DNA of 64,000 nt from Gemmatimonadales bacterium (lineage in GTDB: Bacteria; Gemmatimonadota; Gemmatimonadetes; Longimicrobiales; Gaopeijiaceae): assembly GCA_020344755.1 (NCBI GenBank), contig CP070829.1, forward strand, positions 398,001 to 462,000, given 5' to 3'. Position 1 is the first letter of the stretch; each line of letters starts with the position of its first letter. This document shows positions 56,557 to 63,230 of the stretch, piece by piece. The notes under the pieces are model-generated. The model saw only the letters and a list, made by a program, of their open reading frames with translations, searched no databases and was not told the origin of the DNA. Made by a program: the position numbers and the translations under genes.

Positions 56557-56575
56557 TACTTTGCGACACAAAGTA
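56557..56575 (+). promoter_or_regulatory. Palindromic element, copy 1
   Basis: Inverted repeat with 7-bp arms (TACTTTG / CAAAGTA) and centre CGACA, 49 nt before the start at 56625. The 18-base core TACTTTGCGACACAAAGT recurs exactly at 61861-61878 before the paralogous gene, so it is probably a specific operator. Confidence 0.8.
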
Positions 56576-56624
56576 GTAGGGCGTTCGTGCCGGTACATAT
56601 CGATCCAGGTGCAATGGAGGTGGC

Positions 56625-57068
56625 ATGAGCAAGTGGCTCAGACGGATCCGGGGCGCCATTGGCATGGGACTGACCTGGGGGCTCGCCTGGTTCAGCGCAG
56701 GCATGGTCCTGCTCTTCATTGTCGGCTTCGGCGCTGCGGATGTGCCGTTTCCCCTGGGATTCGGTCTCCTGGGTTTCCTCGCCGGGGTGACCTTCTCCGG
56801 GGTCCTGGGGCTCGCTGAGGGCCGGCGCACCTTCGACGAAATGTCCCTCCCGCGCTTCGCGGCGTGGGGTGGCCTGGGAGGGGTCCTCCTGTCGGTCCTC
56901 TTCATTCTGGTGGCAGGGCTCGGAGGGGATCTCCTCCTGGTCCTGGGCCCCGTGTTCGGCTTGGCAGGCGCCGGCTGCGCCGCAGGCTCGCTGGCTCTCG
57001 CCCGGCAGGCGGACGACCGGTCACTCGCGGGGTCCAGGGGGGATGACCTCCTCGGAGACGGGAGCTGA
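56625..57068 (+). CDS. Small membrane protein (paralogue of 61943-62458)
   Basis: A 147-residue protein with GGAGG before the ATG. It opens with a basic helix (WLRRIRGAIG), followed by about four spans (GLTWGLAWFSAGMVLLFIVGFG; PFPLGFGLLGFLAGVTFSGVLGL; GGLGGVLLSVLFILVAGLG; LGPVFGLAGAGCAAGSLAL). The loop EGRRTFDEMSLPRFAAWG aligns with GRRRRFDELSLPAVAAWG in the paralogue. Family unknown. It lies behind the same palindrome as the paralogue, suggesting a common regulator. Confidence 0.7.
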   Translation: MSKWLRRIRGAIGMGLTWGLAWFSAGMVLLFIVGFGAADVPFPLGFGLLGFLAGVTFSGVLGLAEGRRTFDEMSLPRFAAWGGLGGVLLSVLFILVAGLGGDLLLVLGPVFGLAGAGCAAGSLALARQADDRSLAGSRGDDLLGDGS

Positions 57069-57274
57069 CCAACGGCTATACGAGGCCCACTCTCCTGCAG
57101 CCCTTCGGCAGGCTCCGTCCGCCTTGCCGCGGCACGCAACGTCACGAGCGAACCCCGGGTCGAACCGGTACGGGAGCGCAGCGCCCGGGACGAGGCGGTC
57201 GCGGGAGTTGCCGGCCCCCGGCAACGTCGATCTCGGCCCCGGGAAGGGGCCGTCACACAGCGGGAGGTGTCGAA

Positions 57275-58555
57275 GTGAAACGCGCTCTGGAGCGTCTCGT
57301 GGCCTGCGCTGTCCTCCTGGGCGCCGCGTCGTGTGTCGGAGAGCGAGGATCCCGCGCAGCGGGTCCCGACAAGGGCGATTCGACCGCGATTCAGGTACTC
57401 GTGGTCGGGACCGTTCACGATCAGCACGGCCGAAACCCCAACTACACCTACGAGGATGTCGTCCGGATCGTCGACACTTTCGATCCAGATGTGGTGTGCG
57501 TGGAAATCCGCCCTGACGACTTCCGGCGAGTTCCGTATCTCAAGGAGATGATGCTAGCCACCGTCTGGGGGGCATCGAAGGGCCGGGAGACGTGTGCCTT
57601 CGACTGGTATGACGGGACGACCCGCCGGATTCGGCGCGAGTTGGCGGAGACACCCGAGTACGTCGAGAAGGAGCGGGAGTTCCAGGAACTGATCGCCTCC
57701 AACCCGATCACCGTTCCCTTCGAGGAACGCTACGGTGACTACTGGTCGGGAGAGATGGACTACCGCTTCTACAACGGCTCGGAGTACAACCGGTACTTCG
57801 AGGAATGGTACCGGCTGTCGCTCGCCGTCTATGGTGACGACCCCTTGAATCTCTACTACGAGAGCCGCAATCGCCGCATGATGGACCAGGCGTGGGAGGT
57901 GATCCGTCGGTTCCCCGGGAGGAGAGTGGCGCTCCTCACCGGCACGGAGCACAAGCACTACTTCGACCGCGACTTGGGTTCCCGAGACGGCGTCCAGCTC
58001 ATCCGCCTGGAGGATCTCCTCCCCCTGACCACGGCACCGCTAGACCCTTCGGTCGAGGCTTTCCTCCTGGAAGAGAACGACCTGCCCTACTACCTGGAGG
58101 GCTTCCCGGAAGACACGACGCGCTACTACAGCGGGAAGGTCACCAATCTCATCCACGGTCCGAACATGGACTGGCGGCCCGAGATCATCCCGACGCGAAA
58201 CATCGAGGTCGCCGGGCTGGTGCTCGCGCGCTGGCGCGCCTCGCAGGCCGAGTCACCCCGGCTCCTTCTCGACGAGGGGTGGCAACACTTCCTGGCTGGG
58301 GATTGTCCCGGAGCGATCGAGCACCTCCTGCCCCTGACCGGCGCGATCGAACGCGGCGAAGTCGACGACCTCTTCGTACGAGCCTACGCCTACCGGAACC
58401 TCGGTTGGTGCCACGACCTCCTCGGCGACCGAGACTCCGCGCTCGAGGCGTATTCGAGCGTCCGGCGTATCACGGCGGGAACTCGAATGGAGCGGAGCGC
58501 CGAGCCGATGCTGCGGGACGTGGAATCCACGCCTTTCGTGTGGGACGCCTCCTGA
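57275..58555 (+). CDS. TraB/ChaN-like lipoprotein with C-terminal TPR
   Basis: A 426-residue protein starting GTG 57275 (GGGAGG upstream). Lipoprotein-type signal VACAVLLGAASC. The core IQVLVVGTVHDQHGRNPNYTYEDVVRIVDTFDPDVVCVEIRPDDF and later LLTGTEHKHYF match the EreA/ChaN/TraB-like group (the GT-x-H and E-x-R-P motifs). Members include Tiki-type proteases and haem-binding ChaN, so function is not settled. The last 110 residues are helical, TPR-like (DDLFVRAYAYRNLGWCHDLLGDRDSALEAY). It sits inside the duplicated membrane-protein module. Confidence 0.72.
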   Translation: MKRALERLVACAVLLGAASCVGERGSRAAGPDKGDSTAIQVLVVGTVHDQHGRNPNYTYEDVVRIVDTFDPDVVCVEIRPDDFRRVPYLKEMMLATVWGASKGRETCAFDWYDGTTRRIRRELAETPEYVEKEREFQELIASNPITVPFEERYGDYWSGEMDYRFYNGSEYNRYFEEWYRLSLAVYGDDPLNLYYESRNRRMMDQAWEVIRRFPGRRVALLTGTEHKHYFDRDLGSRDGVQLIRLEDLLPLTTAPLDPSVEAFLLEENDLPYYLEGFPEDTTRYYSGKVTNLIHGPNMDWRPEIIPTRNIEVAGLVLARWRASQAESPRLLLDEGWQHFLAGDCPGAIEHLLPLTGAIERGEVDDLFVRAYAYRNLGWCHDLLGDRDSALEAYSSVRRITAGTRMERSAEPMLRDVESTPFVWDAS

Positions 58556-58615
58556 GACCTGGCTGACGGCTCAGGCTCCACGACCGGTCCCCGGTGGGTG
58601 CACCGCTCCCGCCGA

Positions 58616-59350
58616 TCAGCGTTGGAGCAGCGTGAGAATGCTGTCCACATGGGCGACGGAGCGATCCAGGACGGCCACCGTCGCCACTTCGTGGTGGGTA
58701 CGCTCGGCCAGGAGGTTCCGGAGGAGCTCGGAGTTCCGGGTAGGGATCGCCACACGCACGCGGGTCTCGGGCGTGCCCCGGGCATGCCGATCCACCCAAC
58801 CCTGGAACCGTTCCCACGCCGGCGTCAGGTCCGCCGCCTCGCGAAGCAGAGGAATCAATCGGCCTTCCGTCAGGCGTTGGGAGGTGGCCTCTTCGTTGAA
58901 GACGTCCCGGACCACCCTGGGCCAGGCCACCAGTGCGCTCCGGAGCACCGGATCTTCGATGGCCGAGATGTCCGCGGCCATCTCCAATTCCTCCAGGGTG
59001 GCGTTGGCGATGTCCAGGGTGGGGAGGCTCAGAACCGCAAGCACGAGGGTGTCGGGAATCGGAACGACCTCTTCGCTCCCCGCGGTGGCGAGACGGCTCC
59101 CGGCCTCCCGAGCCGAGCTGGCGATGAGGGAGTGGAAGTAGCGCTTCTCCAGGAGTTCTTCCCGCGCCTGTCCGAAGTCTCCCGCCAGGTTCTCGAGCTC
59201 ACTCCGCTGCCTGGCGGTCTCCTGGAGTCCGTCCCACCAGGCATCGATGGCGAAGGCCAGGAGGATGCTCCCCACGATGGCCAGCGCCTCGGCGCCGATA
59301 CGTGGCCACGAGGCACGCGGAAGGACGGGGGGGCTGGATGGATCAGACAC
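58616..59350 (-). CDS. Single-span membrane protein (paralogue of 62505-63230)
   Basis: A 244-residue protein from GTG 59350. One N-terminal span IGAEALAIVGSILLAFAIDAWWDGLQ is followed by a soluble helical domain (ETARQRSELENLAGDFGQAREELLEKRYFHSLI ... DISAIEDPVLRSALVAWPRV ... LDRSVAHVDSILTLLQR). The AFAIDAWWD motif and layout match DUF6090-like proteins and the paralogue at 62505-63230. Function unknown. Confidence 0.7.
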   Translation of the reverse strand: MSDPSSPPVLPRASWPRIGAEALAIVGSILLAFAIDAWWDGLQETARQRSELENLAGDFGQAREELLEKRYFHSLIASSAREAGSRLATAGSEEVVPIPDTLVLAVLSLPTLDIANATLEELEMAADISAIEDPVLRSALVAWPRVVRDVFNEEATSQRLTEGRLIPLLREAADLTPAWERFQGWVDRHARGTPETRVRVAIPTRNSELLRNLLAERTHHEVATVAVLDRSVAHVDSILTLLQR

Positions 59351-59546
59351 CGAGCACCTCGAGGTCAGCTGTCGGCCCGACGGGCATGCGAGTCCGGTGC
59401 CGGCCACTATGCCCAGCCTGGACCGGCCGGTGCAAGGTCCGTCCGCTGGCGGCGGCCACGTCGCCCCCCTCATGTTCTCCACTCGGGGCGCCCGGACCCT
59501 CCGGACGGCCCCGGCCCGCGGACCGGCCTCGAAAGGAGCCCTGCAG

Positions 59547-61004
59547 ATGAAGTATCCCGCCCGTCCTCCTGTCTCGTCTCTCCTCCTTCGCACCCTCCCT
59601 CTTTTGGCGGCGTGCGTCACCCTGCTCACGGACGCGGCACCCTCGTGGGCACAGGAGGTCACATTCGACCCCGAGGCGCGCCTGGCCGAGCTCGGGATCG
59701 TGCTGCCGGAGCCACCCAACCCCGTGGCGAACTATGTGAACGGGGTGCAGGCGGGAAATCTCATCTTCCTCGCGGGGAAGGGTCCTCTACGGTCCGACGG
59801 GACGGAGGTTCGCGGGAAGCTCGGCCGAGATCTCACCATCGAGGAGGGGTACGAGGCGGCACGGATCACGGCCATCAACCAGCTCGCAGTACTCAAGGCG
59901 ATGCTCGGCGATCTCTCCAGAGTGGTGCGTGTCGTGAAGGTCCTGGGGATGGTCAACGCCGATCCACAGTTCGTGGACCAGCCCGCCGTGATCAACGGCT
60001 TCTCCGACCTCATCGTGGAGGTGTTCGGGGAACGCGGACGCCACGCCCGAGCCGCGGTAGGGATGGCCACCCTTCCCCGGGGTCAGGCCGTGGAGATCGA
60101 GATGATCGTGGAGGTGGCGCCGGAGACCGCGGTGCGCTCCGCCGGCGGTGGCGAGCCGCTGGAGCTGACCTACTTCGGGGCCGCTGGGTGGCGCATCTCG
60201 GACGGGAACGTGGTCGTGCTGGTGGACCCGTGGCCGTCCCGGCTGAAGTACGGGGGCGGCGGGCACCCGGATGACGACCGTCCCGACTTCGCCCGCAGCG
60301 ACCTGGCCTGGTCCGATACCACCCTCATCGACACCCTCATCCCGGAAGCCGACTTCATCCTTGTCCAGCACGGGCACTTCGACCACCTGGGGGACGTCCC
60401 CTACATCGCCCGGAAGACCGGCGCCAGCGTGATCGGAACCGAGACCGTCATCATGATCCTGCGGGCCTACGGGGTCCCCGAGGAGCAGCTCTATGCGGTC
60501 CACGGAGGGGAGGACTACCAGTTCGACGGTTTCAGCGTCCGCGTGGTGCCCGGCCTCCATTCGGCCCTGAATGACAAGCACTACCACGACACGCGCCGAT
60601 ACGACACCCGCACCCCGCTGGAGGCGCCTCTGCGCATCGATCAGTTCATCGAGGGAGGAGCCCTGAGCTTCCTCGCACGGTTCGATCGCCACACGGTCCT
60701 CACCATGGGATCGATGAACTTCATCGAGCGGGAGTTCCAGGGACTCGAGCCGGACATCCTCCTGGCCGGGATAAACGGCTCACGCCTGGGCCTGTACGAC
60801 TACGACCGGCGACTGCTCACCGCCACGGGCTTCCCTCCGGTCGTTCTCCCCACCCACTGGGACAACTTCCGGCTGCCCTACGGCTTCTCGCAGCAGGACA
60901 ACGTCGAGCGGAACCTGCTCCCGTTCATCGAGACCGCCCAACGGGTATCCCCACAGTCGACGGTGATCACGCCCGTGCACCTGGAGCCGATTCTCGTGCG
61001 CTGA
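59547..61004 (+). CDS. Exported RidA-like domain fused to metallo-beta-lactamase domain
   Basis: A 485-residue protein; AAGGAG precedes ATG 59547. The N-terminal signal (PLLAACVTLLTDAAPSWAQ) indicates export; an LAAC could also make it a lipoprotein. Residues about 50-190 form a RidA/YjgF domain (NYVNGVQAGNLIFLAGKGPL ... HARAAVGMATLPRGQAVEIEMIVEV), with the family Arg at 168. From about 205 comes an UlaG-like metallo-beta-lactamase fold, with HGHFDHLGD (275-283) and a second ligand region GLHSALNDKHYHD. RidA with a zinc hydrolase in one exported chain is unusual. Confidence 0.9.
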   Translation: MKYPARPPVSSLLLRTLPLLAACVTLLTDAAPSWAQEVTFDPEARLAELGIVLPEPPNPVANYVNGVQAGNLIFLAGKGPLRSDGTEVRGKLGRDLTIEEGYEAARITAINQLAVLKAMLGDLSRVVRVVKVLGMVNADPQFVDQPAVINGFSDLIVEVFGERGRHARAAVGMATLPRGQAVEIEMIVEVAPETAVRSAGGGEPLELTYFGAAGWRISDGNVVVLVDPWPSRLKYGGGGHPDDDRPDFARSDLAWSDTTLIDTLIPEADFILVQHGHFDHLGDVPYIARKTGASVIGTETVIMILRAYGVPEEQLYAVHGGEDYQFDGFSVRVVPGLHSALNDKHYHDTRRYDTRTPLEAPLRIDQFIEGGALSFLARFDRHTVLTMGSMNFIEREFQGLEPDILLAGINGSRLGLYDYDRRLLTATGFPPVVLPTHWDNFRLPYGFSQQDNVERNLLPFIETAQRVSPQSTVITPVHLEPILVR

Positions 61005-61108
61005 CGTCGGGGTGCCCCGACCCCTTCCGTCGGCAGCCGGGACCTTGGCGCCCGAGGACCGTCAGCTCCGCTTCCAGGACCGAAGCCAGGCGCTCGACGG
61101 CTCTACGT

Positions 61109-61663
61109 CTACGCCAGCCAGGAGGACTGAAGCTGGGCGACAATGGCGACCAGAGTGAAAGCAACGAAAAGCACCCCGATGGCGCGGTGGACCTTCGCGT
61201 TCTCGGTCCAGGCTCCGACGAGGCCGACGGTCACCGCCGTCGCCTGCACCCCTCGTGCAGGATGGGCCAGCCCCATCCCCAGATTCACCGATGCGCTGGC
61301 TGCAGCGCTCGCACCCCAGACCGCCAGGCCCAGGAACCAGCGCCTTCGCGTCGCGAGGTAGTGGTCCTCCCAGGAGGCCACGGCTTCGGCATCCGAGGGT
61401 ACGACCGTGGCGGCGCAGTAGTAGAGCGTCCCCGGGATCAGGAGCGCGACCAGGAAACCCACGAAGGACCACTCGACCTCGGCGAGGGAGTAGAAGACCC
61501 AGAAGCTCATCGCCACCAGGAACAGGGTCGTGCCGGTCAGGATCAGGTGCGACGCGGATCGAACCTCCCTCGACAGCGCCGACGAGAGCCCTCCAATAAT
61601 CCGGAGAGCCGCCAGTGAATAGAGCAGACTGAAGGCGATCGCCAGGTATTCGAATTGCGTCAT
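61109..61663 (-). CDS. Polytopic membrane protein, unknown
   Basis: A 184-residue protein from ATG 61663 with about five spans (MTQFEYLAIAFSLLYSLAALRIIG; HLILTGTTLFLVAMSFWVFYSL; FVGFLVALLIPGTLYYCAAT; WFLGLAVWGASAAASASVNLGM; IGVLFVAFTLVAIVAQL). The soluble loop between spans 3 and 4 carries EAVASWEDHYLATRRR. No family recognised. Divergent from the second palindrome-controlled gene. Confidence 0.6.
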   Translation of the reverse strand: MTQFEYLAIAFSLLYSLAALRIIGGLSSALSREVRSASHLILTGTTLFLVAMSFWVFYSLAEVEWSFVGFLVALLIPGTLYYCAATVVPSDAEAVASWEDHYLATRRRWFLGLAVWGASAAASASVNLGMGLAHPARGVQATAVTVGLVGAWTENAKVHRAIGVLFVAFTLVAIVAQLQSSWLA

Positions 61664-61860
61664 GGAGGCAGCGGCACCTCTCCCGAATCGATCGGCGGTG
61701 GTTGGTTGTCTGATGCTCCCGCACATCATGCCAGGCTCGGGCCATGGTTCGCAAAGGAGCGCTTCGGTCCGTCCTCGGGCTACGTTGCGGAGACTCCAGG
61801 CCGGCATCATGCCCGGCCCGCTCCACATCCTTCAAGCTTGGATCCAGCCGACGGCGTTTG

Positions 61861-61878
61861 TACTTTGCGACACAAAGT
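61861..61878 (+). promoter_or_regulatory. Palindromic element, copy 2
   Basis: Same 18-base core as copy 1 (TACTTTGCGACACAAAGT), inverted arms ACTTTG/CAAAGT with centre CGACA, 64 nt before the start of the paralogous gene. Two exact copies in front of paralogues argue for a functional operator rather than chance. Confidence 0.8.
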
Positions 61879-61942
61879 GGTATCGAGGGCGCGTCGCGCC
61901 GCACCCTCGGCGGGAACCAGCGCGCACTCTGGGGAGGTCGCG

Positions 61943-62458
61943 ATGAAGGCTTGGGTGAGACGGATCCGAGGCGCCTTGGGGCTGGGAGTGACCTGGGCGG
62001 CGGTGGGCTTCTTCGCGGGAATGGTCATCGAGCTGATCCACAACCTCTGGCCCAACCCTCTCGGGGAGGCGGTGGACATCTGGCCCGCGGCACTCGCCTA
62101 TCCAGGGTTCTTCGGCGGAGTGGCCTTCGCCGCGGTACTGGGGATCGCAGGACGCCGACGCCGATTCGACGAGCTCTCTCTTCCCGCCGTCGCCGCCTGG
62201 GGCGCGCTCGGTGGCCTCGTGGTGAGCCTCATCCCCGCCATCCTGGTGGGCATCGGCTGGGCGACACCCAATGTGCCGGTGTGGCGGATCACCCTGGCCC
62301 TCGCCGGTCCGTTCACGATCGGGGGAGCCCTGGCCGCCTCGGGTTCGCTGGCCCTGGCCCGCAGGGCCGAGGACCAGGAACTCCTGGAGGGCGGCCTCGA
62401 CGTCGCCGATGCAGGGCTCTCCGAACGGGAGAAGCGGGAGCTGCTTGGGGGCGGCTGA
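61943..62458 (+). CDS. Small membrane protein (paralogue of 56625-57068)
   Basis: A 171-residue protein; GGGAGG lies 5 nt before the ATG. It opens WVRRIRGALGLGVTWAAVGFFAGMVIELIHN, near-identical in pattern to the paralogue, with about four spans and the shared loop GRRRRFDELSLPAVAAWG. The C-terminal tail is longer (RRAEDQELLEGGLDVADAGLSEREKRELLG). Family unknown. The DUF6090-like gene at 62505-63230 follows convergently 46 nt away, as in the other copy of the module. Confidence 0.7.
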   Translation: MKAWVRRIRGALGLGVTWAAVGFFAGMVIELIHNLWPNPLGEAVDIWPAALAYPGFFGGVAFAAVLGIAGRRRRFDELSLPAVAAWGALGGLVVSLIPAILVGIGWATPNVPVWRITLALAGPFTIGGALAASGSLALARRAEDQELLEGGLDVADAGLSEREKRELLGGG

Positions 62459-62504
62459 CTCCGCCGGGACCCGGCGAAGCTGATCTCGCCCTAGGCCCGC
62501 CGCC

Positions 62505-63230
62505 TCATGCGCGGTCTTCCAGGCTGCGTGCGATGAGGTCCAGGATGCGCTCGATCTCCGCCAGCACCGGTTCGAACTCGTCCACCAGGTGAGCCTGGAT
62601 CATGAAGCGGGTCGAGACCACACCGACCAACTCGGTATCGACCGGAATCGTGGATCGGGTTCCGAGCTCCTCCGGTGTGAGGGTTCCTGCAAGCACATCC
62701 AACCCGATGGTCCGGAACGGGCTCACGTCCATCCGTTCCCTGAAGACGCGGTCGAGATCGGAGAGGACCAGCTCTCGCGCGCTCCACTCCTCCTCGCTCA
62801 ACTCTCCCAGGTTGTTCCCCCAGGCGGCCAGTGCGCTCCGGAGCTCGGGATCTCGGACGATCCCCAGCCCGGCCGAGCCCACCAGGCCGTTCAGCGTCCC
62901 CAACATCAGTTGGGTCGTGGGTGGGATGTAGAGCCAACCCAGGGCGGTGTCGGGCACCGAGACCATCGGCGCCCCGCCACGAAGCCCGTCCACCACGCTC
63001 GCCCGGACCGATTCCACGGATCCCAGGATCCGCCGGTGCATGTCGAGTTGCGCCAGGAGATCCGAGCGGGTGGCGCGGAACTCGGTGTCCAGGGAGCGCA
63101 GGACCTGCTCCTCCTCGGACCGGGCCTTCACCGAATCCCACCAGGTGTCCAGGGCGAAGGCCGCGAGAATGCTCGCGACGATGACGACGCCCTCCAGTAC
63201 GAGGCGCCGGCTCTCCTTGGCGGCAATCAT
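62505..63230 (-). CDS. Single-span membrane protein (paralogue of 58616-59350)
   Basis: A 241-residue protein from ATG 63230. The span LVLEGVVIVASILAAFALDTWWDSVK is followed by a soluble helical domain (ARSEEEQVLRSLDTEFRATRSDLLAQLDMHRRIL ... RDPELRSALAAWGNNLGEL). The TWWD motif and the RDPELRSALAAW segment align with DAWWD and EDPVLRSALVAW in the paralogue. Function unknown; presumably the partner of the small membrane protein encoded next to it. Confidence 0.72.
   Translation of the reverse strand: MIAAKESRRLVLEGVVIVASILAAFALDTWWDSVKARSEEEQVLRSLDTEFRATRSDLLAQLDMHRRILGSVESVRASVVDGLRGGAPMVSVPDTALGWLYIPPTTQLMLGTLNGLVGSAGLGIVRDPELRSALAAWGNNLGELSEEEWSARELVLSDLDRVFRERMDVSPFRTIGLDVLAGTLTPEELGTRSTIPVDTELVGVVSTRFMIQAHLVDEFEPVLAEIERILDLIARSLEDRA

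Follow-up and report, generated by a model that had tools for sequence, protein, structure and literature searches.

A palindrome that occurs twice in the window analysed here, a 64,000-nucleotide stretch of a Gemmatimonadales genome (positions 398001-462000 of contig C1 in a 4.10-Mb assembly, G000), is best explained as the operator of a dimeric winged-helix regulator of the HTH_34 family (PF13601). Each copy lies just upstream of one of two paralogous genes for small membrane proteins, P0001 and P0002. The regulator, encoded in trans, would also control its own promoter through the same site (consensus WACTYTGYNNNRCARAGTA), and on the sequence evidence we put the probability of this reading at roughly 0.9. 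The protein is most likely an autoregulated repressor of genes for membrane and envelope functions. If so, HTH_34, a widespread and apparently little-studied family, gains a concrete predicted operator together with predicted targets, and two membrane proteins without a name become members of a predicted regulon with an envelope theme.

A pattern scan for TACTTTGCGACACAAAGT[A/G]GTA with up to three mismatches matched the window at 56557 and 61861 only, and 100 shuffles of the window yielded no match, which bears out the two copies of an 18-base palindromic core reported in the earlier note. Copy 1 reads TACTTTGCGACACAAAGTAGTA (56557-56578) and copy 2 reads TACTTTGCGACACAAAGTGGTA (61861-61882); they are identical over the 18 shared bases and at 21 of 22 positions when the flanks are counted. 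The shared bases form an inverted repeat with the arms ACTTTG and CAAAGT around a 5-nt centre. The predicted operator O1 (TACTTTGCGACACAAAGTA, 56557-56575, no strand assigned) has perfect arms of 7 bp, precedes the P0001 start codon by 49 bp, and is identical in sequence to the motif of both the family and the phylum. The arms are 6 bp long in the predicted operator O2 (TACTTTGCGACACAAAGTG, 61861-61879, again without strand), which precedes the P0002 start codon by 63 bp.

The site is rare. ACTTTG-N5-CAAAGT occurs three times exactly and once with a single mismatch in the 4.1 Mb of the genome, in which pattern matching alone was used to look for weak sites; these four sites are O1, O2, C1:3663280 and C1:58580. 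A wider pattern added one further site with one mismatch (C1:322208; three per strand in the control), which is probably due to chance. Exact sites were found in 21 of the 121 genomes of the taxonomic family, and the 395 genomes of the phylum yielded about 50 of them in 44 genomes versus one for the reversed control. The copies are not scattered at random over the genome, and they precede homologous genes and, in relatives, also the unit containing the gene for the DNA-binding HTH_34 protein. Two copies beside paralogous genes could also mean that the palindrome terminates transcription, belongs to a repetitive element or is a chance repeat stemming from local duplication. We regard this as extremely improbable, as the palindrome has no T-run, is located at promoters, is near-unique in the genome, and is conserved across three phyla while its centre varies.

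As had been remarked before, no regulator gene is seen beside the palindromes in the window. We found one clear PF13601 winged-helix gene in the genome (131 aa; G000:C1:2506454-2506843, minus strand), and its product matches the model with 94.1-94.9 bits (cut-off, 27) over positions 1-80 of 80. The gene order is membrane protein, HTH_34, uppS. The membrane partner consists of about 200 aa and has a conserved N-terminal segment ahead of its first membrane span, and no effector domain was evident in the ~130 residues of the regulator itself. The uppS gene directly after HTH_34 (undecaprenyl diphosphate synthase family; G000:C1:2505765-2506421, minus strand) is the second copy in the genome, the other being at C1:1694532. 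GNL..H in the recognition helix was invariant in all 18 rows of our alignment (A4), divergent HTH_34 paralogues included, and a pattern based on it retrieved 549 relatives. Those with named records belong first to Gemmatimonadota, then to Gammaproteobacteria and Acidobacteriota; the HTH_34 unit is present in Pseudohongiella nitratireducens and Pyrinomonas methylaliphatogenes. Of 14 control genomes, 11 had a match to HTH_34 above its cut-off.

The palindrome and this regulator are found together in relatives. The best 30 loci were examined per search, which favours close relatives. Among the best 30 HTH_34 loci of the family, a palindrome with 0-4 mismatches (3-7 for the reversed control) was found upstream in 28 of the 29 that could be read, nearly always at a distance of 650-750 bp from the HTH_34 match, which places it ahead of the two-gene unit. 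Around the family sites the recurring pair consists of the membrane protein (...FIRxTMExxxxFTAVSG...) and the winged-helix gene. We also scanned 80 HTH_34 loci of Gemmatimonadota, Gammaproteobacteria and Acidobacteriota in GTDB for sites with at most three mismatches in 230-bp bins: the bin from -930 to -700 was occupied in 61 of 77 loci, that from +220 to +450 in 23 of 80, and all other bins together held three sites. The bin from +220 to +450 corresponds to the gap before the next gene, which is uppS in some loci and encodes a DUF4153-type membrane protein in others. For the genes after HTH_34 in Gammaproteobacteria, the label DUF4173 was dropped after Pfam assigned the one tested (L113) to DUF4153; the two families are named in only three papers of the open-access literature searched. 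When exact sites were collected by pattern alone, 9 of the 30 loci from the phylum and 7 of the 21 from the family had an HTH_34 gene within 1.5 kb, and counted by genome the site and HTH_34 co-occur (Fisher's test, P = 1e-5). The regulator that was missing beside the palindromes thus appears to be an HTH_34 protein encoded in trans, and its position and co-occurrence lead us to infer that the palindrome is bound by a dimer of HTH_34 itself.

Alternatively, the palindrome may be read by some other winged-helix regulator (PadR-, ArsR- or MarR-like), its link with HTH_34 reflecting nothing but a shared ancestry of the locus. HTH_34 is indeed related to the ArsR, HxlR and PadR models, and some site-bearing genomes have no clear HTH_34 gene. 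Nevertheless, we consider this explanation unlikely, as the palindrome stays with the HTH_34 pair despite differing neighbours, which are a lipid kinase and uppS in Gemmatimonadota and DUF4153-like membrane genes in several Gammaproteobacteria and in Pyrinomonas. Moreover, divergent paralogues of HTH_34 that have different membrane partners also carry the site, 609-725 bp upstream (L012, L015, L016 and L028). The sites in L012, L015 and L028 take the form AACTTTG-N5-CAAAGT[T/A], and the divergent HTH_34 gene of L012 faces GntR and ABC-transporter genes.

The profile scores place the regulator of this genome outside the PadR and MarR families, as it reached 24.9 with PF03551 (PadR; cut-off, 27), 15.2 against 101.8 with TIGR03433 (the acidobacterial PadR paralogue family) and 20.7 with PF01047 (MarR; cut-off, 24.6). 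It exceeded the cut-off of the ArsR-type HTH_5 model with 31 bits, and the HTH_34 model scored far better than any other. The predicted system resembles that of PadR regulators, in which a small winged-helix protein beside a membrane protein has a palindromic operator and is autoregulated, and also that of MarR and ArsR repressors, for which a winged-helix dimer and an inverted repeat in the -35 region are typical. What we describe is very probably a new assignment of a regulator to its site and not a new kind of system. It adds a conserved membrane partner and a predicted operator to what is known of HTH_34 proteins, the sole solved relative found by sequence being PH1061 (PDB 1UB9). In the open-access literature searched, HTH_34 or PF13601 was not named and no operator for it was found; neither was anything relevant on PH1061 or anything on the motif strings.

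Several points weigh against the assignment of the palindrome to HTH_34. For five site-bearing genomes of the family, no clear orthologue of HTH_34 was found: a divergent HTH_34, with a site of its own, is present in G050, a fragment only in G104, and nothing clear in G064, G071 and G108. Another regulator, chance or an incomplete assembly is therefore possible in these cases; many of the compared genomes are metagenome-assembled genomes, so that absences are weak. About one third of the testable P0001-family genes have no site. At the P0001 and P0002 promoters the operator is not accompanied by TTGAC, and the mode of control is therefore less certain there. Finally, the regulator's operator in its own genome is a putative one, assigned by synteny across two gaps and not read through.

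Both gaps are runs of 100 N. One (L032:2419-2518, C1 ~2,507,400) cuts the membrane gene of the HTH_34 unit at its 5' end. The third exact site, C1:3663280, stands directly 3' of a lipid-kinase-like gene, and ~50 bp past it a gene (MSSPILRIG...) starts and enters the other gap (L005:1336-1434, C1 ~3,663,200). In relatives the operator keeps a fixed place at the HTH_34 unit's own promoter, beside the -35 box. As a lipid-kinase gene lies directly upstream of that unit in ~30 loci of relatives, the third site would be the promoter site of the regulator. In the most economical interpretation, the scaffold is misordered at the two gaps, as is probable, and the third site serves as the autoregulatory operator. 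The gaps would then split one operon, with the lipid kinase, the palindrome and the gene start on one side and the rest of the membrane gene, HTH_34 and uppS on the other. The regulator would be expressed from the unit of ~200-aa membrane protein, HTH_34 and second uppS, the promoter of which, with the operator beside its -35 box, would make the unit autoregulated.

The promoters of the regulator, aligned on the operator, read ACTTTGYNNNRCAAAGTA-CTTGAC; that is, the palindrome abuts a TTGAC -35 box. In the Gammaproteobacteria-group set (51 sequences), a TANAGT -10 box follows 17 bp after the -35 box, and both boxes are near consensus. The operator would therefore cover about -55 to -37, where a bound protein should block sigma at -35, and on this ground HTH_34 probably represses by occlusion rather than activates. 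That HTH_34 binds the site and activates from just upstream of -35 is a less probable option that deserves to be kept in mind, as the operator is centred ~11 bp ahead of the -35 box, close to the geometry of class II activators. Activation accords poorly with a site that abuts the -35 box and with boxes in the Gammaproteobacteria set that should need no help, and small autoregulated winged-helix proteins are mostly repressors.

In its own genome, the HTH_34 regulator would govern a regulon of about four promoters: the HTH_34 unit itself and, in trans, those of P0001, P0002 and a third small membrane protein, the gene of which (start MNTLADFLYPAPARR) lies 46 bp after the site at C1:58580. P0001 (147 aa; 56625-57068, plus strand) has about four hydrophobic segments, and its paralogue P0002 (171 aa; 61943-62458, plus strand) aligns with it at 44% identity (E = 1e-31), about three to four such segments being found in the two. 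The paralogy of the two proteins, each behind a copy of the palindrome, had been noticed earlier, and it is not a matter of transmembrane composition only, as the polar motifs RRIRGA and FDExSLP are shared in addition to hydrophobic stretches. Profile searches against Pfam and NCBIfam gave no named family for either protein, and the predicted structure of P0001 (pLDDT 59, pTM 0.32) was of too low quality for a fold search. Genes of the P0001/P0002 type had the operator within ~150 bp at 18 of 28 testable loci among the best of the family; all 18 site-bearing genes are in genomes with an HTH_34 orthologue, as are 6 of the 10 without a site. A rare palindrome upstream of homologous genes in relatives agrees with the earlier note's proposal of an operator common to paralogous genes and of a small regulon.

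In Gemmatimonadota the operator would also serve further membrane and envelope genes. Exact sites in the phylum precede P0001-type genes (L225, L226, L229, L232 and L233), genes for DUF4153 membrane proteins (L217, L218, L237 and L239) and a gene for an outer-membrane efflux protein (L238). They are also found 12-31 bp before SLBB/Poly_export polysaccharide-export genes (L221, L222 and L223). In L229 a single palindrome (1501-1519) lies between two divergent P0001-family genes. In L022, L025 and L027 the palindrome is flanked on one side by a divergent ffh (SRP54-like) gene and on the other by one for a small membrane protein with '..EFLFPAPA.R..', which is similar to the product of the C1:58580 gene. 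The site-bearing genes for membrane and export proteins, together with uppS, suggest an envelope theme, and that part of the earlier note's guess at a function fits the uppS, polysaccharide-export and membrane-protein targets.

Among six genomes from other phyla, every exact or one-mismatch site found (in four genomes) sits at the HTH_34 locus, so that control looks local there. In one phylum, a locally autoregulated unit would have expanded into a small regulon acting in trans. A signal may reach the regulator through the co-encoded membrane protein, which would sense the envelope and hold or release HTH_34, an idea that we offer tentatively. With similar reserve, the membrane protein and HTH_34 could be regarded as a compact membrane-to-promoter signalling unit controlling uppS, polysaccharide-export and DUF4153 genes in three phyla, to which new membrane-protein genes would have been added as a captured regulon in Gemmatimonadota.

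The earlier note had grouped the palindromes and small membrane proteins with further genes of the window. These encode two single-span proteins on the minus strand (P0003, 'AFAIDAWWD', 58616-59350; P0004, 'AFALDTWWD', 62505-63230), a lipoprotein-like protein called TraB/ChaN-like (57275-58555, plus strand) and a fusion of RidA/YjgF with a metallo-beta-lactamase fold (59547-61004, plus strand). That the whole duplicated block forms one module is very unlikely in our view. A WWD gene does stand on the opposite strand at both copies, and P0003 and P0004 are homologous (29% identity, E = 8e-21, 74.7 bits), but their family, without a Pfam entry, has ~20 members (22 matches) scattered over the genome, and P0003 scores higher with a distant copy (L179, 84 bits) than with its neighbour P0004. 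The neighbours were found at none of 29 further P0001-family loci (mostly with flanks of up to 1.5 kb, which farther partners could escape), nor next to P0001-type genes in six larger stretches, one of them from G043, a member of the same genus. The WWD, 'TraB' and RidA fusion genes hence look like bystanders, and the larger module was rejected. The TraB/ChaN label was likewise abandoned, as Pfam gave no TraB match at E <= 1 for the 57275-58555 gene and only a weak TPR match. In G043 the two paralogues are ~1 kb apart with one operator, and a partial RidA-like match lies ~8-10 kb away. The RidA fusion was confirmed by Pfam and, with its likely signal peptide, is an unusual exported protein. 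The 'AFA.D.WWD' single-span proteins are partly clustered, for example at G000:C1:2981188-2987409.

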